Source of the DNA: an uncultured Flavobacteriaceae bacterium
GTDB lineage: Bacteria; Bacteroidota; Bacteroidia; Flavobacteriales; Flavobacteriaceae
Assembly: GCA_913065125.1 (NCBI GenBank)
Contig: CAJYAG010000005.1
Location: 1-64,000, forward strand
DNA length: 64,000 nt
Direction: 5' to 3'
The translations under genes and the position numbers were made by a program. Position 1 is the stretch's first letter; each line of letters begins with the position of its first letter. Positions 57,759 through 64,000 of this stretch are shown here, piece by piece. The notes under the pieces were generated by a model. It saw only the letters and a program-made list of their open reading frames with translations. It did not search any database and was not told the origin of the DNA.

Positions 57759-58587
57759 ATTTTTGCAAAAAATATTGATAATTAGAATTGCTTTCTAATT
57801 GATTTTGAATAGTGATATCTAGTTGATGAAAAAAGTTTAACCCTGTAACTTTTTCAATACTATCAATAGAAACACTAAAAGAAGATACATTACTATTTGA
57901 TTTTTCGTTTTTTAATAAAAACCCAATTCCAAATAGTTCTTCTTTGTGAAACCTAATAATCGACTTGTAATAATAGCGAGGAACTGTAACTTGGCTCTCT
58001 CCTATTCTACCTAAAGGGTTATTAAAAACTGGACCTGTTACAACGTATAAAGAATCGCTAATTGAAATCCAGCTTCGTATTTCTTCCTCTAATTTTTTCC
58101 ATATTCCTCTATTAAATGATGGGTTTTGCGGACTCATATTACTCATATAAAAACTTTCGCTCATCGTTAAATCATTAAATGACATTGTTTTTGCTGGCGC
58201 TAAATGTCCTCTGTCATAACCAGAATTCCTATAATCTTTTAAAGTAGAAGAACCTGTTGCTACTTGTAAATCTTCTCTAAAATTATCTTTTCTTTTTACT
58301 GAATCATTTATAGAATTTTTAAATAATTTATACGCAGCCCACTCAGCTTGTTCATCTTTTTCGCTATAAGAAAAGCTGTATTGTAGATGATTTACTATTT
58401 GATTTTGGGTTGAAGCTGGTTGTATAAAATCGACAAAAACCTTTTTTAAAGGAACAATTGAGTCTACAGTTAGATGTCTTTGTTCTGTTTTTAACGCATT
58501 CATATCACCTTTATCATTAGAATAAAAATAATAGGCAACAACACATAAAAATACAATCAATATAAAAAGAAGAATTCGTTTTATCAT
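57757..58587 (-). CDS. DNA/RNA non-specific endonuclease, membrane-anchored or secreted
   Basis: A 276-residue nuclease with an N-terminal hydrophobic helix (residues 3-22) that anchors or exports it. The catalytic DRGH motif is in YDRGHLAPAKTMSFN, followed by the metal-binding NMSPQNPSFNRGIWKKLE segment typical of the NUC1/EndoG family. It likely degrades nucleic acids outside the cell for nutrient use. A fairly long spacer (residues 25-95) separates anchor and domain. Confidence 0.9.
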   Translation of the reverse strand: MIKRILLFILIVFLCVVAYYFYSNDKGDMNALKTEQRHLTVDSIVPLKKVFVDFIQPASTQNQIVNHLQYSFSYSEKDEQAEWAAYKLFKNSINDSVKRKDNFREDLQVATGSSTLKDYRNSGYDRGHLAPAKTMSFNDLTMSESFYMSNMSPQNPSFNRGIWKKLEEEIRSWISISDSLYVVTGPVFNNPLGRIGESQVTVPRYYYKSIIRFHKEELFGIGFLLKNEKSNSNVSSFSVSIDSIEKVTGLNFFHQLDITIQNQLESNSNYQYFLQK

Positions 58588-58640
58588 TAGAACAATATAG
58601 ATGATAAAAATAAGAAAAGAGCCATTGAAAAAAACAAAAA

Positions 58641-58665
58641 AACCTTACAAAACTGTAAGGCTTTT
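58641..58665 (-). terminator. Rho-independent terminator of the VOC gene
   Basis: Minus-strand stem AGCCTTAC/GTAAGG with a 6-nt loop and a T-rich tail just after the VOC stop codon (58671). Confidence 0.75.
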
Positions 58666-58670
58666 TATTA

Positions 58671-59081
58671 TTAAGAAAATATGGTTTCTTGTTTTATAAA
58701 ATGTTTGAACTCTACAACATATCCATTTGGATCTTTCACAAAAAACGAAATATGCTCTCCATTTTTATCTTTTAAAAAAGCTGTTTTTTCAATGAAGATA
58801 GTTTTAGAAGCGTGCAGTTTTTCATAAAGATTAGACCAAATTTCTTTTGATAAAATTACACCAAAATGAAAAGAGGGTAAAATTGTGCCTTCAAATTTGT
58901 AATTTTTAAAAGCAAAATTAAAATCCCCAGATTTTGTAAACGTTATTTGATGGTTGTACAAATCAACATCTAACCATTGATTTGTATTTCTGCCTAATTT
59001 TGCACCAAGAATATTTATATAGAAGTTTTTTGTACTTTCTATTCCTTTGCAAGGCAACGACAAATGAAATAATGCATTCAT
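58671..59081 (-). CDS. VOC family protein, paralogue of the 43253 gene product
   Basis: A 136-residue vicinal-oxygen-chelate protein. It starts MNALFHLSLPCKGIESTKNFYINILGA and shares with the protein at 43253-43672 the middle segment LPSFHFGVILSKEIWSNLYEKL and the C-terminal DPNGYVVEFKHF. The metal ligands (first His in FHLSL, HQITF, Glu in VEFKHF) are retained. It lies 12 bp downstream of the acidic-tail protein gene. The substrate is unknown. Confidence 0.85.
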   Translation of the reverse strand: MNALFHLSLPCKGIESTKNFYINILGAKLGRNTNQWLDVDLYNHQITFTKSGDFNFAFKNYKFEGTILPSFHFGVILSKEIWSNLYEKLHASKTIFIEKTAFLKDKNGEHISFFVKDPNGYVVEFKHFIKQETIFS

Positions 59082-59093
59082 ATGATATCTGTT

Positions 59094-59381
59094 TTAAAAA
59101 TCCTCCTTGGTTTCATCGATGTCATCATTTAACGCAAAATCATCTTCTTCAAAAGAATCTTCATCTTCTGCATAATCTTCCATCGTTTGTTCTAGTCTAG
59201 AACTAATTTTAACTAAAAAAACTGTGTCTTCTGTTTTTACTTCTACTGCTTTTATAGTTTCTCCTTTGGCGTTCTTAAAAGAAATTACATCAGAGTAGTC
59301 ATATCCGTCTGGATACTTCTCTACCAACATATCTAATATGTCTGTAGTTAGCTTTGCATAATCAACTATTACTCGTTTCAT
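59094..59381 (-). CDS. Small acidic-tail protein of unknown function
   Basis: A 95-residue soluble protein. Residues 1-65 are an alpha+beta domain (VIVDYAKLTTDILDMLVEKY, then ISFKNAKGETIKAVEVKTEDTVFLVKI) and the last 30 are very acidic (over 15 Asp/Glu), a layout reminiscent of RNA polymerase delta-type or DNA-mimic tails. I think it is a conserved flavobacterial small protein but cannot name its role. It sits 47 bp after the deoxyhypusine-synthase-like gene with a hairpin between them. Confidence 0.75.
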   Translation of the reverse strand: MKRVIVDYAKLTTDILDMLVEKYPDGYDYSDVISFKNAKGETIKAVEVKTEDTVFLVKISSRLEQTMEDYAEDEDSFEEDDFALNDDIDETKEDF

Positions 59382-59407
59382 TTTAATTTGTTTTTATTGT
59401 ATGGCAT

Positions 59408-59440
59408 TTAGAAATGTACATGTTTAATTTACATTTCTAA
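59408..59440 (-). other. Perfect 11-bp inverted repeat at the end of the polyamine operon
   Basis: TTAGAAATGTA and TACATTTCTAA flank an 11-nt loop and overlap the stop codon of the deoxyhypusine-synthase-like gene. It lacks a following T-run, so it may stabilise the mRNA end or act as a protein site rather than terminate. Confidence 0.4.
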
Positions 59441-60412
59441 TAAATAAGCAAAAATTAATGGTGCAACAATTGTTGCATCACTTTCTATAATAAACTTAGG
59501 AGTATCAATATCTAATTTCCCCCATGTAATTTTTTCATTCGGAACGGCTCCAGAATACGAACCGTAACTTGTGGTCGAATCTGAAATCTGACAGAAATAA
59601 CTCCAAAATGGTGTATCTGGTCTTTCCATATCTTGATATAACATCGGCACTACACAAATTGGAAAATCTCCTGCTATTCCGCCTCCAATTTGAAAAAAAC
59701 CAATTCCGTTTGCAGAATTATCTGTATACCAATCTGCCAAAAACGTCATGTATTCAATGCCAGATTTCATAGTAGAAGCTTTTAATTCTCCTTTCATTAC
59801 ATAGGATGCAAAAATATTTCCCATAGTTGAATCTTCCCAACCAGGCACAATAATTGGTAAGTTTTTTTCAGCTGCTGCATACATCCAAGAATCTTTAATG
59901 TCTATTTCGTAATGCTCTTCTAAAACACCAGACAACAATAATTTATACATGTATTCATGTGGTAAAAACCGCTCATCTTTAGCTTCAGCTTCTTTCCAAA
60001 TTTTTACAATATGTTTTTGTATTCTTCTAAATGCTTCTTCTTCTGGAATACAAGTATCGGTAACACGATTTAGCCCTTTTTCTAACAAATCCCATTCGTC
60101 TTGCGGAGTTAAATCTCTATAATTAGGAACACGTTTATAATGAGAATGTGCAACTAAATTCATAATATCTTCTTCTAAATTTGCTCCTGTACAAGAAATA
60201 ATATGCACTTTATCTTGACGAATCATTTCTGCAAAAATCTTCCCTAGTTCTGCAGTACTCATCGCTCCCGCTAAAGAAACTAACATTTTAGATCCGTTTT
60301 TTAATTGTGCATCATATCCTTTTGCTGCATCAACTAAAGCAGCTGCATTAAAGTGCAAAAAGTATTTTTCTATAAATTCTGTTATGGGTTTATTAGAAGT
60401 CATCGTCATCAT
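59429..60412 (-). CDS. Deoxyhypusine synthase-like polyamine enzyme
   Basis: A 327-residue NAD-dependent enzyme of the deoxyhypusine synthase family. ISCTGANLEEDIMNLVAHSHY, PIIVPGWEDSTMGN, IGFFQIGGGIAGDFPICVVPML and the active-site Lys in EKITWGKLDID are conserved. Bacteria have no eIF5A, and characterised bacterial homologues transfer an aminobutyl or aminopropyl group between polyamines (homospermidine synthase-type activity), so such a role is inferred. Its start overlaps the agmatinase-like gene by 20 bp. Confidence 0.9.
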   Translation of the reverse strand: MMTMTSNKPITEFIEKYFLHFNAAALVDAAKGYDAQLKNGSKMLVSLAGAMSTAELGKIFAEMIRQDKVHIISCTGANLEEDIMNLVAHSHYKRVPNYRDLTPQDEWDLLEKGLNRVTDTCIPEEEAFRRIQKHIVKIWKEAEAKDERFLPHEYMYKLLLSGVLEEHYEIDIKDSWMYAAAEKNLPIIVPGWEDSTMGNIFASYVMKGELKASTMKSGIEYMTFLADWYTDNSANGIGFFQIGGGIAGDFPICVVPMLYQDMERPDTPFWSYFCQISDSTTSYGSYSGAVPNEKITWGKLDIDTPKFIIESDATIVAPLIFAYLLEM

Positions 60413-61337
60413 TTTTAAATTTTGATAATTTACTAAACGGATTGTCAGAATTTACTAAATCATCTGTATCATACGTATCATCATTTGACATAAATTTATA
60501 ACTTAACATTTTATAAAACAATTTTGCAGCTAAAAAATCTGAAGATTTCTCTGTTGGATTTGGACATAATTCTACCATATCAAAACCAACTACATTTTTT
60601 TCTTCAAACACTTTCTTTAAAAATTCTAGCGTTTCGTAATAAAATAATCCTCCTGGTTCTGGTGTTCCTGTTGATGGCATTAATGAAGGGTCTATTGCAT
60701 CTAAATCAAACGTAATAAATACATTGCTTGTTAATTGATCGATCACATCATCCATCCAACCTTCGTTTACAACCATATCATGCGCAAAGAAAACTTTATC
60801 CAAATTCATTACTCTTTTTTCAGAGACATCCATAGATCTGATTCCGACTTGCACCAAATTTGTAGTTTGATTTGCTTCATAAACCGCACAAGCATGATTA
60901 CAAGTAGAGCCTTCGTATTCTTTACGTAAATCTGCATGTGCATCAATATGCAACACAGATAAATTATCGAAACACTCGTTAAATGCTCTAATGGTACCAA
61001 TAGAAATTGAATGTTCTCCCCCAAAAAGTGTTACAAATTTATTCTTATTGATATAATACTTTGTTGTTTGATGTACAGCATCTACCATAGCTTCTGGTGA
61101 TGAATTTTCTGTAATTGCATCTGCTAAATAAACACCTTCTTTGTATACTTCAGAATCGGTTTCTATATCATACAATTCCATGTTCTCTGAAGCGTCTAAA
61201 AAAGCTTCCGGTCCTTTATCTGCTCCTTTTTGCCATGTACTTGTCCCATCATAAGGAACAGGGATTAAAACAATTTTTGATTGCTCTATTTTTGAAAAAT
61301 TTTCAGGGATTCCTGCGTACGTTTTACTAGTTTTCAT
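60393..61337 (-). CDS. speB: Agmatinase-like ureohydrolase
   Basis: A 314-residue binuclear Mn ureohydrolase. Metal-binding motifs GGEHSIS, LHIDAHADLR and TFDLDAIDPSLMPSTGTPEPGG are intact. It most likely splits agmatine (or an aminopropyl- or aminobutyl-agmatine) to release urea. A 35-residue charged tail (DDTYDTDDLVNSDNPFSKLSK) extends beyond the domain. It overlaps the decarboxylase gene by 11 bp and the deoxyhypusine-synthase-like gene by 20 bp, so all three are translated as one operon. Confidence 0.92.
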   Translation of the reverse strand: MKTSKTYAGIPENFSKIEQSKIVLIPVPYDGTSTWQKGADKGPEAFLDASENMELYDIETDSEVYKEGVYLADAITENSSPEAMVDAVHQTTKYYINKNKFVTLFGGEHSISIGTIRAFNECFDNLSVLHIDAHADLRKEYEGSTCNHACAVYEANQTTNLVQVGIRSMDVSEKRVMNLDKVFFAHDMVVNEGWMDDVIDQLTSNVFITFDLDAIDPSLMPSTGTPEPGGLFYYETLEFLKKVFEEKNVVGFDMVELCPNPTEKSSDFLAAKLFYKMLSYKFMSNDDTYDTDDLVNSDNPFSKLSKFKNDDDDF

Positions 61338-62724
61338 ATCCTAATATTGATAATAATTCTTTACTTTTTTGTTGTTCTTTAAATACTTTGGTTGTAACGT
61401 TTCCATTACGGTCTTTGTTTATTAAAATGTGTTTTGGATGCGGAATTAAACAATGTTGTAAACCACCAAAACCGCCAATAGATTCTTGATAAGCACCTGT
61501 GTTAAAAAAACCAATATACAAAGGTTTTTCTTTTTCATAAATTGGCAAATAAATGGCATTTATATGTTGTTCAGAATTGTAATAATCGTCACTATCGCAT
61601 GTTAAACCACCTAATAAAACACGTTCATATTGTCTGTTCCATTTATTAATTGGCAACATGATAAAACGCTTGTTTATTGCCCAAGAATCTGGTAATGTTG
61701 TAATAAATGATGAATTAATCATGTTCCAACGTTCTCTATCATTTTGTTTCTTTTGATACAATACTTCGTAGATGGCACCGCCAGCTTCACCAACTGTAAA
61801 ACTTCCAAATTCTGTAAAAATATTTGGCACAGGAACATCTGCATTTTTACACGCTTCATTAATTTGATTGATGATTTCATCAATCATATATTGATAATCA
61901 TACTCAAAAGCTAACGAGTTCTTAATAGGAAATCCGCCCCCAATATTTAAACTATCTAACGTTGGGCATGCTTTTTTTAACTTGATGTAAACACTGATAC
62001 ATTTCAATAATTCATTCCAATAATATGCATTATCTCTAATGCCTGTATTGATAAAAAAATGCAACATTTTAAGTTCTACTTGCGGATTATCAGCAATTTC
62101 TCTTTCATAAAAGGATACAATATTTTTGTAGCCAATTCCCAATCTACTTGTATAGAATTCAAATTTTGGTTCTTCTTCTGATGCTATTCTAATTCCTACT
62201 TTAAACTTCTTGTCTGTTTGTTCTTGAAGCAAGGGTAATTCTTCATAATTATCAATAATCGGAATACAGTTTTTGTGATTTGAGTTTATTAATTCACCAA
62301 TATTTTCTATGTATTGATTTCGTTTAAAGCCATTACAAATAATAAAAGTATCGTCTTTTATTTTTCCTTCAGCTTTTAAATTTTTAATAATATCTAAATC
62401 AAAAGCAGACGAAGTTTCTATATGAATATTGTTTGTTAAAGCTTCGTCAAGAATAAATTTAAAATGCGAGCTTTTGGTACAATAACTATAAAAATAATCT
62501 CCTTTATAATTGTGCTTTTTTATTGAAGATTGAAACCAATTTTGCGCCCTTTTAATATTCTCTGATATTTTTGGCAAATAAGTGAATTTTAAAGGCGTAC
62601 CATATTGTTCAACCAACTTAGCTAAATTTATATTATGAAAAAACAAGTTGTTATTTTCTGTATGAAATTCCTCTTGGGGAAAATCAAAAGTTTGTTCTAT
62701 TAAATCTGTGTATTTAGTGTTCAT
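61327..62724 (-). CDS. speA: Arginine decarboxylase (alanine racemase fold, PLP)
   Basis: A 465-residue PLP decarboxylase of the fold type III group, much shorter than E. coli SpeA but of the size of Bacteroidota arginine decarboxylases. The PLP Lys lies in FYSYCTKSSHFKFILDEAL, the glycine-rich SLNIGGGFPIKNS and the EFGSFTVGEAGGAIYEV segment follow, and the catalytic Cys loop near LLGGLTCDSDDYY closes the site. It makes agmatine, the substrate for the next gene product. It is first in the operon and is preceded by a long structured leader with a 19-codon upstream frame. Specificity for arginine rather than diaminopimelate or ornithine is inferred from the operon. Confidence 0.88.
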   Translation of the reverse strand: MNTKYTDLIEQTFDFPQEEFHTENNNLFFHNINLAKLVEQYGTPLKFTYLPKISENIKRAQNWFQSSIKKHNYKGDYFYSYCTKSSHFKFILDEALTNNIHIETSSAFDLDIIKNLKAEGKIKDDTFIICNGFKRNQYIENIGELINSNHKNCIPIIDNYEELPLLQEQTDKKFKVGIRIASEEEPKFEFYTSRLGIGYKNIVSFYEREIADNPQVELKMLHFFINTGIRDNAYYWNELLKCISVYIKLKKACPTLDSLNIGGGFPIKNSLAFEYDYQYMIDEIINQINEACKNADVPVPNIFTEFGSFTVGEAGGAIYEVLYQKKQNDRERWNMINSSFITTLPDSWAINKRFIMLPINKWNRQYERVLLGGLTCDSDDYYNSEQHINAIYLPIYEKEKPLYIGFFNTGAYQESIGGFGGLQHCLIPHPKHILINKDRNGNVTTKVFKEQQKSKELLSILGYEN

Positions 62725-62986
62725 TTACTTTTTAAAAAAAATTATACAATTAACCTATCTAATTAGCATCTTATGCTAAGATAAGAGATAACCTCATTAA
62801 AAAGAAAATATCACTGTCTTATGTTTAAATACACAACATGCAGTTTAGAAAACTGCTGTATATTTAAAAGAGAAGTGGGAAAAACCAAAATTTTTTCGAT
62901 GCATTTCCAAAATGCTAAATACTTATTTTCTTCCCAAGAATAAGTACTCACGAAATAAGAAAAATATAACATTTTACTTACTAAAA
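62725..62986 (-). promoter_or_regulatory. Structured leader RNA of the polyamine operon
   Basis: From a -7 element at 62993 to the speA ATG is about 260 nt without a long gene. Perfect or near-perfect stems occur at 62920-62946, 62901-62915 (GCATTT/AAATGC), 62840-62856 (GCAGTTT/AAACTGC) and 62763-62779 (TTAGCAT/ATGCTAA). The heptamer ATGCTAA recurs at 62912-62918 and could pair with TTAGCAT at 62763-62769 instead, making alternative folds. The loop of the first hairpin (TGGGAA in the RNA) can also pair with TTCCCA near 62880. The remaining 62987-63051 is AT-rich. Confidence 0.5.
62845..62904 (-). CDS. 19-codon upstream ORF in the polyamine operon leader
   Basis: An ATG frame encodes the 19-residue peptide MHRKNFGFSHFSFKYTAVF, with stop codon TAA. 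It is rich in Phe and basic residues and is not seen elsewhere in the window. Its ATG lies in the 3' arm of hairpin 62901-62915 and its stop in hairpin 62840-62856, and the TTCCCA segment is inside it, so ribosome movement would change the leader fold. It may be a regulatory leader peptide; a chance frame cannot be excluded. Confidence 0.4.
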   Translation of the reverse strand: MHRKNFGFSHFSFKYTAVF

Positions 62987-62992
62987 AGTTTT

Positions 62993-63000
62993 CAAATGTA
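62993..63000 (-). promoter_or_regulatory. Candidate -7 element of the polyamine operon
   Basis: TACATTTG on the minus strand fits TAnnTTTG, and the same octamer is used by the tRNA operon. No good -33 TTG is visible, so confidence is moderate. Confidence 0.4.
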
Positions 63001-63051
63001 ATTTATTTTTTGAAATAAAAAAGAAAAATGAAAAAAATTTTAGAAAACAAA

Positions 63052-63079
63052 AAATCCTTACTATTTCTAGTAAGGATTT
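63052..63079 (-). terminator. Rho-independent terminator of the tRNA operon
   Basis: A perfect 12-bp stem AAATCCTTACTA/TAGTAAGGATTT with a 4-nt loop and further T residues on the minus strand, 4 nt after the tRNA-Arg gene. Confidence 0.88.
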
Positions 63080-63082
63080 AAG

Positions 63083-63156
63083 TGAGCCCTGAAGGATTCG
63101 AACCTTCGACCGCCTCCTTAGAAGGGAGGTGCTCTATCCAGCTGAGCTAAGAGCCC
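63083..63156 (-). tRNA. tRNA-Arg (anticodon TCT)
   Basis: The 74-nt cloverleaf has acceptor GGGCTCT, D-stem GCTC/GAGC, anticodon stem CCTCC/GGAGG with loop CTTCTAA, and T-loop TTCGAAT. It reads AGA and AGG codons. Third gene of a three-tRNA operon. The 3' CCA is not encoded. Confidence 0.97.
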
Positions 63157-63185
63157 GTAGTTTTTTAGTTGCTACGACAACTATG

Positions 63186-63260
63186 TCGGGGTGGCAGGAT
63201 TCGAACCTGCGACCTCCTCGTCCCAAACGAGGCGCGATGACCGGGCTACGCTACACCCCG
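63186..63260 (-). tRNA. tRNA-Pro (anticodon TGG)
   Basis: A 75-nt cloverleaf with acceptor CGGGGTG, anticodon loop TTTGGGA between CTCG and CGAG pairs, and T-loop TTCGAAT. Second gene of the tRNA operon; the CCA is not encoded. Confidence 0.97.
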
Positions 63261-63276
63261 AGTTTGCAAAATTTTG

Positions 63277-63360
63277 CGGAGAGACAGGGACTCGAACCCT
63301 GGCGACAGTTACCCGTCGACAGATTAGCAATCTGCTCCATTACCACTCTGGCACCTCTCC
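63277..63360 (-). tRNA. tRNA-Ser (anticodon GCT)
   Basis: An 84-nt cloverleaf with the long variable arm of serine tRNAs (CGACGGGTAACTGTCG), acceptor GGAGAGG and anticodon stem CAGATT/AATCTG around GCT. First gene of the operon; reads AGC and AGU. Confidence 0.97.
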
Positions 63361-63397
63361 TTAACAATACTTAAGTATTAATTAAAAATTGCGAGTG

Positions 63398-63428
63398 CAA
63401 ATGTAATATTACAAATACAATTTAGCAA
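63398..63428 (-). promoter_or_regulatory. Promoter of the tRNA operon
   Basis: TACATTTG (complement of 63398-63405) with TTG (63426-63428) 20 bp upstream is a full Bacteroidota promoter. Start is predicted near 63391, about 30 nt before tRNA-Ser. Confidence 0.6.
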
Positions 63429-63460
63429 CCTTTTTTAGTTTTTTTTCATAAAAATTATCC

Positions 63461-64000
63461 CTAATCAGGATATTCTATTCGTAAGTGATAAATATTCATC
63501 AATTTCTTTTTTATTACCTTTTTTATCTTTTCTATTTCTCTAAATGTAATATCTGAATTAATAAATTGATTATCAGATTTTTGCTTTTCTACAATCTTAT
63601 CAATTAAAACTTCAATAGATTGTGCTGTGGGGTTTTTAATACTTTTTGTAGCAGCTTCTGCAGCATCACAAATCATTAAAATTGCTGTTTCTTTTGAAAA
63701 CGGAATTGGCCCAGGGTATTGAAATTTTTTAGAATCAACCTGTTCTTCTGGAAATAATTCTTGCTCTTTTTTATAAAAATAATATACCAAACTTGTTCCG
63801 TGATGTGTTCTTATAAAATCTATAATTCGGTCTGGCAATCTATTTTCTTTTGCCAATTCAATCCCTTTAATTACATGATTGATAATTAAATATGCACTGT
63901 CTTTTGGAGATAAATCGTTGTGTGGATTAACTCCTGTAGATTGATTTTCTATAAAATACATCGGATTAGACATTTTGCCGATATCGTGATACAAAGCACC
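63461..64000 (-). CDS. 7TM-HD family phosphohydrolase, C-terminal part (5' end outside window)
   Basis: The last 179 residues of an HD-domain hydrolase; the frame is open to the window edge. HDIGK (metal-binding His-Asp), the second-half RTHHGTSLVYYFYKK and SKETAILMICDAAEAATKS are the HD motifs of the PgpH/YqfF group, in which a 7-helix membrane domain precedes the HD domain and the enzyme degrades cyclic di-AMP. The membrane part would lie beyond 64000. A cyclic di-AMP role is family knowledge, not shown here. Confidence 0.85.
   Translation of the reverse strand, partial: GALYHDIGKMSNPMYFIENQSTGVNPHNDLSPKDSAYLIINHVIKGIELAKENRLPDRIIDFIRTHHGTSLVYYFYKKEQELFPEEQVDSKKFQYPGPIPFSKETAILMICDAAEAATKSIKNPTAQSIEVLIDKIVEKQKSDNQFINSDITFREIEKIKKVIKKKLMNIYHLRIEYPD

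Follow-up and report, generated by a model that had tools for sequence, protein, structure and literature searches.

The polyamine operon of the uncultured Flavobacteriaceae bacterium analysed here lies behind a conserved leader ORF of 53 codons (62972-62811, minus strand), which probably (at roughly 0.6) encodes a nascent peptide that arrests its own release at UGA and thereby switches the operon; we infer the arrest, its ligand and its direction from sequence comparison. Judged across aligned leaders, the nascent end together with UGA is the most widely conserved feature of the family's leaders and is constrained at the protein level. The 5′ half of the same frame also forms, according to covariation, a pseudoknotted RNA in most genera sampled. 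A conserved small frame before flavobacterial polyamine genes suggests an undescribed form of metabolite sensing in the control of polyamine synthesis. Coordinates refer to the window, the whole stretch of 64,000 nt that was analysed.

The polyamine operon and its conserved leader frame

The leader and the genes behind it comprise the following features:

59094-59381, minus strand: 95-aa gene downstream of the polyamine genes, function unassigned by profiles
59429..60412, minus strand: deoxyhypusine synthase-fold enzyme, candidate homospermidine synthase (Pfam DS above cut-off, NCBIfam equivalogs below cut-off)
60393..61337, minus strand: agmatinase (TIGR01230 above cut-off)
61327..62724, minus strand: arginine decarboxylase-like gene, 465 aa, PLP-dependent, SpeA-related
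62728..62804, minus strand: structured segment between the uORF stop and the decarboxylase start (hairpin 62754-62785; folds better than shuffles)
62811..62846, minus strand: C-terminal motif KLHVVYLNIRQ plus UGA, proposed arrest sequence (compare KLxIIYANIRV-UGA of genus g119)
62811..62972, minus strand: conserved leader ORF, 53 codons, ATG to TGA, MLYFSYFVSTYSWEENKYLAFWKCIEKILVFPTSLLNIQQFSKLHVVYLNIRQ (start register and coding constraint in the C part)
62845..62904, minus strand: 19-codon ORF of the first-pass annotation, not conserved
62993..63000, minus strand: TACATTTG, promoter box candidate

Pfam and NCBIfam profiles confirmed the gene set of the arginine decarboxylase operon that the first-pass annotation had placed behind the leader. 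The best NCBIfam models for the decarboxylase-like gene are those of arginine decarboxylase, with scores below their cut-offs, and the 95-aa product gave no Pfam or NCBIfam match above cut-off. The operon leads from arginine through agmatine to putrescine and from there probably to homospermidine; the last step is assigned from the fold and by analogy with bacterial homologues. The promoter box candidate fits TAnnTTTG, the −7 box of Bacteroidota. Among the leaders L285-L314 and L129-L132, several have the uORF start only a few nucleotides 3′ of such a box, and because of this short distance the uORF mRNA may be leaderless or nearly so. Upstream of the leader lie genes for tRNA-Arg(tct), tRNA-Pro(tgg) and tRNA-Ser(gct) (63082-63360, minus strand), followed before the leader by a terminator-like hairpin (63079-63052).

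The conserved ORF overlaps the 19-codon ORF in another frame and had been missed by the annotation. Its peptide of 53 residues ends in SKLHVVYLNIRQ-UGA. In the window's genus, where the decarboxylase was found in 36/58 genomes, a homologous leader ORF is present in all 30 loci read, the window's own included. The 27 window-form leaders all start with ATG, and the last residue is Q in 19 of them; they stop with TGA (17), TAA (9) or TAG (1), and this looser stop, TGA in only 17/27, counts against the arrest-peptide explanation. A scan of ten genomes of the genus with the peptide-end pattern gave a match before the decarboxylase in nine and no match in one. An additional KLHVVYL-coding stretch was seen in a genome of the genus away from the decarboxylase (G021:C1:1412265-1412284). 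A 7-pair hairpin (62840-62856, minus strand) lies inside the C-terminal coding part of the uORF, and relatives seem by eye to keep one with changed pairs. Pfam and NCBIfam searches with five leader peptides (three from the window's genus, one from class I, defined below, and one from g119) returned nothing at E up to 1 or 0.1.

The wider family was sampled through the decarboxylase, independently of the leader: 143/199 genomes matched, window and sister species included, and of the remaining 141 loci 88 were read. Class I denotes 48 of these leaders, one per genus, picked by RNA motif and not by peptide (alignment A1). In all 48 the start codon lies exactly 18 nt upstream of the TTC of helix P2 (TTG 35, ATG 9, GTG 4); since start codons interchange at one fixed position, this is the real start. 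The stop is TGA in 46/48, against 1/62 decarboxylase genes (Fisher p 2e-27, with relatives counted as independent) and 3/50 window ORFs of at least 150 aa. The residues directly before it are biased as well: the third-last is I/L/F in 47/48 (background 0.25), the second-last Q/R in 35/48 (0.12) and the last I/V in 44/48 (0.11). Leader peptides therefore mostly end in [ILF]-[QR]-[IV], from ORFs mostly of 53-60 codons, and have what termination-arrest peptides in general have, conserved residues directly before a conserved uORF stop. In the leaders scanned, 59/149 sense ORFs of fitting size and place ended in [ILF][RQ][VI], compared with 0/58 on the opposite strand.

Protein-level constraint is clear downstream of the RNA element, because pN/pS there is 0.57-0.59 and falls to 0.34 within one C-terminal type. 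Within the RNA-coding half it is weak (0.89 and 0.74), and RNA and protein constraint are confounded there. The C-terminal types found were KLxVVYxNIRx, FVPTTxxQIxI, YWLNPIRI, CLALRV and FxPxTVFxFRI.

A pattern scan of named genomes returned at least 119 stretches, all examined. Because the selecting pattern contained the pseudoknot, the evidence from these matches lies in start, stop and C-terminus alone. Among the matches listed (119), a start codon was in register in 117; among the 114 complete ORFs of the matches listed, TGA was the stop in 101, and positions −3, −2 and −1 held I/L/F in 109, Q/R in 83 and I/V in 105, respectively. Most of the 80 titles listed for the matches are Flavobacteriaceae (Winogradskyella, Lacinutrix, Maribacter, Cellulophaga, Kordia, Bizionia), the remainder being MAGs with broader or odd labels. 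One of these, a MAG labelled Campylobacterales (L171), carries a normal uORF and decarboxylase and is for that reason probably a misbinned flavobacterial contig; L170 (a MAG labelled Bryobacterales) and L259 are GC-rich and have no start codon, and we treat them as chance matches on that ground.

A pseudoknotted RNA within the leader frame

The leader as a whole is well folded, as first annotated: its 291 nt have an MFE of -60.9, where shuffles average -46.3 (z -3.3). Three alignments were used to examine its structure. A1, the 48 class I leaders, was collected with a regular expression demanding TTCG, GGAAG and CTTCC. A2 holds 27 window-form leaders picked by the start codon and TT[CT]G, out of 31 sequences (L010, L025 and L030 missed the pattern, and L026 equals L021); the coordinates of L008, L009, L014, L018, L023 and L027 were shifted by hand, the pattern having caught an inner ATG. 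A3 holds 28 matches, outside A1, to R1, a covariance model of class I built without the pseudoknot pairs, although its sequence profile does cover the pseudoknot columns. The selection of A1 builds in the invariance of the P2 and pseudoknot strands, so the evidence for the pseudoknot was drawn from A2 and A3. The elements in the window are:

62877..62955, minus strand: pseudoknotted three-helix RNA overlapping the ORF (paired-column counts)
62951..62955, minus strand: P2 5′ strand TTTCG, pairs with 62894-62898 (conserved, without double changes)
62894..62898, minus strand: P2 3′ strand CGAAA
62939..62947, minus strand: P3 5′ strand GTACTTATT (double changes at 9/9 pairs in A2)
62919..62927, minus strand: P3 3′ strand AATAAGTAT
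62930..62935, minus strand: pseudoknot 5′ strand GGGAAG, in the P3 loop (first annotated as TGGGAA)
62877..62882, minus strand: pseudoknot 3′ strand TTTCCC (first annotated as TTCCCA)
62901..62915, minus strand: P4 hairpin GCATTTTGGAAATGC

P2, P3 and P4 form a three-way arrangement, and a segment 3′ of P2 is paired with the loop of P3. Of the cells of A1, 98.1% are paired, and 13/30 pairs show double changes, against 6.8 in shuffles (covariation score 0.196 versus 0.114); in A2, 91.1% of cells are paired and 14/25 pairs show double changes, against 9.6 (0.369 versus 0.202), the shuffle controls treating the leaders as unrelated. Sliding the partner by 1-3 columns lowers pairing to 23-56%. P3 and P4 hold the double changes, joined in A2 by the pseudoknot; P2 has none in either alignment, and 8/26 A2 leaders break one of its pairs. 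For the pseudoknot alone, doubly changed cells number 16 in A2 (7.7 in shuffles) and 14 in A3 (4.9 in shuffles), a level reached by 0/500 shuffles in either alignment. Counted instead as pseudoknot pairs that carry a double change, the signal is unexceptional, at 3 versus 2.2 in A2 (123/500 shuffles as high) and 4 versus 2.3 in A3 (27/500), and one slid version of the pseudoknot in A2 still pairs 78% of cells.

Among the pairings named in the first-pass annotation, the loop-to-segment pairing TGGGAA/TTCCCA alone holds up in relatives: it is present in the window and corresponds to the covarying pseudoknot. The hairpin described there as holding the ATG of the 19-codon ORF is likewise real, being the covarying helix P4, and the ATG inside it is incidental. 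A further class I helix, P1 (TTAGCT/AGCTAA), is highly conserved; we leave it unclaimed because it has no double change and is not visible by eye in the window's genus. Just 3′ of the presumed promoter box and upstream of the uORF start, TTTAGCTGAAC is near-invariant in A1; it can pair with AGCTAA, with no covariation. The Rfam 15 covariance models, run on window positions 58000-64000 and on 15 family loci, returned only tRNAs and sub-threshold matches outside the element. A coding sequence that overlaps a covarying pseudoknot is, to our knowledge, uncommon.

Between the uORF stop and the decarboxylase, the segment folds better than the shuffle mean in 41/45 class I and 19/20 window-form leaders, the test being limited to segments of 70-130 nt (45/48 class I, 20/27 window form). 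RNAalifold returned no common structure for this segment from the 20 window-form sequences. In class I the segment pairs with the region upstream of the decarboxylase start better than shuffles do (mean z 0.96); in the window form it does not (0.15).

One large genus of the same family, g119, which is probably Flavobacterium, shows the peptide end without a match to the RNA. A MAG titled Flavobacterium sp. (L168) carries the class I element, so that either its label or the naming of g119 needs care. The decarboxylase is present in 46/46 g119 genomes, and 34 leaders were read, 30 from those genomes and four others. None of the 34 loci matched R1 at E 0.01 (best 0.23), a model built from class I that reaches even the window form poorly: it misses the window's own element and matches some window-form leaders, mostly weakly. 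In 33/34 leaders we found a uORF ending in [AS]N[IL]RV, most commonly EKLQIIYANIRV, with TGA as the stop in 32/33, compared with 0/34 of the decarboxylase genes. The last 12 codons have pS 0.75 and pN 0.15, and their pN/pS of 0.19 is near that of decarboxylase codons 10-110 (0.15-0.16). The N-termini differ widely between species. By eye, KLxIIYANIRV of g119 aligns residue by residue with KLHVVYLNIRQ of the window, and LRLRGVYLELRV (L010) and LRLRGVYLQLQV (L032) are intermediate between the two. In ten g119 genomes the peptide-end pattern matched solely before the decarboxylase in eight, and two had no match. Since g119 keeps both peptide end and stop codon while its N-termini drift and R1 finds no match, these two are the most widely kept parts of the leader.

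Proposed mechanism, alternatives and known systems

UGA is read by RF2, not RF1. A uORF that varies freely over its first half but keeps its last residues and UGA is what would be expected if the finished nascent chain obstructed RF2, as it does in TnaC (PMC8429421). We propose that the leader peptide, once complete, would block hydrolysis by RF2 at UGA in the presence of a pathway-linked small molecule; the most likely ligands would be a polyamine such as putrescine or homospermidine, the substrate arginine or the intermediate agmatine. The ribosome would then park at the uORF stop, 86 nt upstream of the decarboxylase, cover the start of the following structured segment and thereby alter access to the decarboxylase start or the entry of Rho. 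The pseudoknot adjoins the uORF start and probably governs the frequency of uORF translation; it appears to be accessory, because g119 does without it. A leader kept over dozens of genera, with near-fixed UGA and end and a free N-terminus, would amount to a natural mutagenesis of a nascent-chain motif on the Bacteroidota ribosome, and the roles of peptide and RNA can be tested separately because g119 has the peptide end only and other genera have both. More tentatively, and at slightly less than even odds, the leaders may make up a new, family-wide class of Bacteroidota metabolite-sensing termination-arrest peptides, with several C-terminal types and mostly UGA, dual-coded with the pseudoknotted RNA in most genera sampled; one stretch of mRNA would then serve as both peptide sensor and RNA gate for polyamine synthesis.

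Several of these observations would also suit an RNA that is itself the regulator, a riboswitch-like aptamer or protein-binding leader, with an ORF that is incidental or merely unfolds it. P3, P4 and the pseudoknot covary, the RNA part of class I has diverged little at synonymous sites (pS 0.21, compared with 0.72 for the C part), and the near-invariance of TTTAGCTGAAC before the start codon in A1 points the same way. However, the 34 g119 loci keep the peptide end without an R1 match at E 0.01, and UGA and the C-terminal residues are constrained outside the RNA element; we therefore consider an RNA regulator unlikely, even allowing that g119 could hold an RNA of another shape, R1 being built from class I. 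A small protein acting in trans would explain why an ORF, mostly of 53-60 codons, is conserved and under purifying selection in its C part. That the groups differ widely in their N-terminal halves but share the last residues and the stop is instead the pattern expected of a cis-acting nascent peptide, no Pfam or NCBIfam family model matched, and we regard a trans-acting product as improbable. Codon-dependent attenuation, with pausing at arginine (or other) codons when charged tRNA is scarce, has a precedent in Salmonella speF orf34 (in the available text of PMC6386406); arginine is the substrate of the pathway, and many of the peptides have a penultimate Arg. In class I, though, the penultimate residue is Gln in 21/48 and Arg in 14/48, and UGA would go unexplained, which makes this mechanism quite improbable.

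The remaining alternative, a SpeFL-like 19-codon uORF combined with a heptamer switch, had been the model of the first-pass annotation, and we now give it next to no likelihood. Every element of it exists in the window sequence: the ATG at 62904 opens the ORF, and TTAGCAT (62763-62769, plus strand) has both its local partner (62773-62779) and its distal one (62912-62918). In relatives, however, little of this is kept. In an alignment of 27 leaders, all but one from the window's genus, the 19-codon ORF is open in two, the window species and a sister with 96% decarboxylase identity; the other 25 run into a stop in this frame after 1-5 codons, and eight of these have no ATG. Conservation of the uORF in relatives, by which the model was to stand or fall, is a property of the overlapping 53-codon frame instead, and the 19-codon ORF was rejected as the regulatory uORF. 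A start codon held in a hairpin and a stop buried in a stem, both described for that frame, lose their meaning with it. The exact Watson-Crick 7-mer occurs in 4/27 leaders (L002, L003, L020 and L021, window and sister among them), complementarity in most others is at shuffle level, and the mutually exclusive heptamers were likewise rejected as a switch. SpeFL has a C-terminal sequence of the HRNSFDFHFF type. The likeness to it of H-R-x-x-F-x-F-x-H-F is a coincidence of the wrong frame, as the 19-codon uORF is not conserved; membership of SpeFL by C-terminus was rejected, the look-alike ORF being open in 2/27 leaders and the conserved ORF ending in KLHVVYLNIRQ or relatives of it.

The reading of termination arrest places the flavobacterial leader among leader peptides of a known kind; what is unusual is the overlap with a pseudoknot and the variety of ends. 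By analogy, it may act like TnaC, SpeFL or MdtU, and by the C-terminal feature tested it is not SpeFL. TnaC, the leader of E. coli tryptophanase, is established to arrest termination through inhibition of RF2 at UGA, and in it, too, a short peptide's last residues and UGA stop matter; the available text of PMC8429421 mentions no dual-coded pseudoknot for it. TnaC has 24 residues instead of 53 and serves another pathway, so that the two are likened by mode and not by sequence. SpeFL is an ornithine-linked leader of a polyamine operon in gamma-proteobacteria that acts at the stop codon (available text of PMC8429421 and PMC7815308) by inhibiting RF1-mediated release (PMC8429421), and orf34, the speF leader of Salmonella, involves ribosome pausing at codons (available text of PMC6386406). 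The flavobacterial leader resembles both as a polyamine-operon peptide proposed to act at its stop codon. SpeFL differs in controlling ornithine decarboxylase and in its use of RF1, whereas the flavobacterial UGA implies RF2; given UGA in 46/48 class I and 17/27 window-form leaders, an RF1-type arrest appears, on this indirect ground, unlikely.

MdtU, a uORF of E. coli mdtJI, is required for induction by spermidine and is likewise polyamine-linked and most conserved at its C-terminus; it differs in belonging to a gamma-proteobacterial spermidine exporter gene and in being Rho-dependent, with no pseudoknot mentioned in the available text of PMC7815308. Within Bacteroidota, the NAP-stop and NSP-stop uORFs before sec genes, which are candidate arrest peptides, are also conserved at the extreme C-terminus, right at the stop, but they come from a search around Sec/YidC-related genes and end in proline (available text of PMC10987492), whereas the flavobacterial leaders lie before polyamine genes and mostly end in [ILF][QR][IV]. 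The spermidine riboswitch, a variant of the SAM aptamer, also senses polyamines through RNA (available text of PMC10853860); the flavobacterial leaders differ in having no Rfam model match and in overlapping a coding ORF. A literature search, covering mainly open-access articles without their supplements, turned up no report that arginine decarboxylase genes of Flavobacteriaceae have a leader peptide or a structured leader. The main text of a flavobacterial transcriptome study (PMC9723704) does not mention arginine decarboxylase, speA or an upstream ORF, and the available text of a survey of 104 motifs (PMC2864571) mentions neither arginine nor polyamine. The general idea of the first-pass annotation, an arrest-peptide or attenuation-type leader of a Bacteroidota polyamine operon for which no described equivalent was found, thus emerges strengthened.

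Distribution, losses and moved copies

Of the 88 family loci, 68 carry the RNA: 48 by the strict motif (class I), 19 by an R1 match at E 0.001 or better, and L032, which has the window-genus form (class II) outside the sample of the window's genus. In eight further loci there is a uORF whose end is of this type and no R1 match at 0.001; not all of the eight stop with TGA. The last 12 show neither RNA element nor matching uORF, so the decarboxylase can occur without the device. Genome-wide searches with R1 matched 9/246 genomes across the order (13 scored candidates per genome, stricter filters) and 18/41 in the family at E 1 (80 scored candidates, stricter filters), both of them weak negatives. 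The 23 loci taken from outside the family (L133-L155) rank among the best of the 181 genomes, of 197 searched, that have a decarboxylase. R1 matched none of these loci at 0.01 (best E 2.4), and no such uORF was seen by eye in 21 of them (L150 and L155 left out).

In four loci, L163 (1366-1608, minus strand), L191, L214 and L197, the polyamine genes are absent from this position and the leader immediately precedes a gene of about 90 aa homologous to 59094-59381, which stays with the leader there. The L163 genome has no decarboxylase match at 1e-60. L163, L191 and L214 have peptide ends that are alike and have lost the motif, and L197 keeps CEIRV with TAG. In addition, a copy of the element was observed in L172 and L239 (Kordia records) and in L050 (822-1011, minus strand), with a 52-codon uORF ending in VVVI[FY][VI]RA plus TAA; it precedes a pair of genes, an ORF of 100 aa and one for a protein of at least 436 aa that weakly resembles RimK-type proteins. 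The peptide of the L050 copy is identical to that of L239, and L050 also has the decarboxylase copy, hence two copies.
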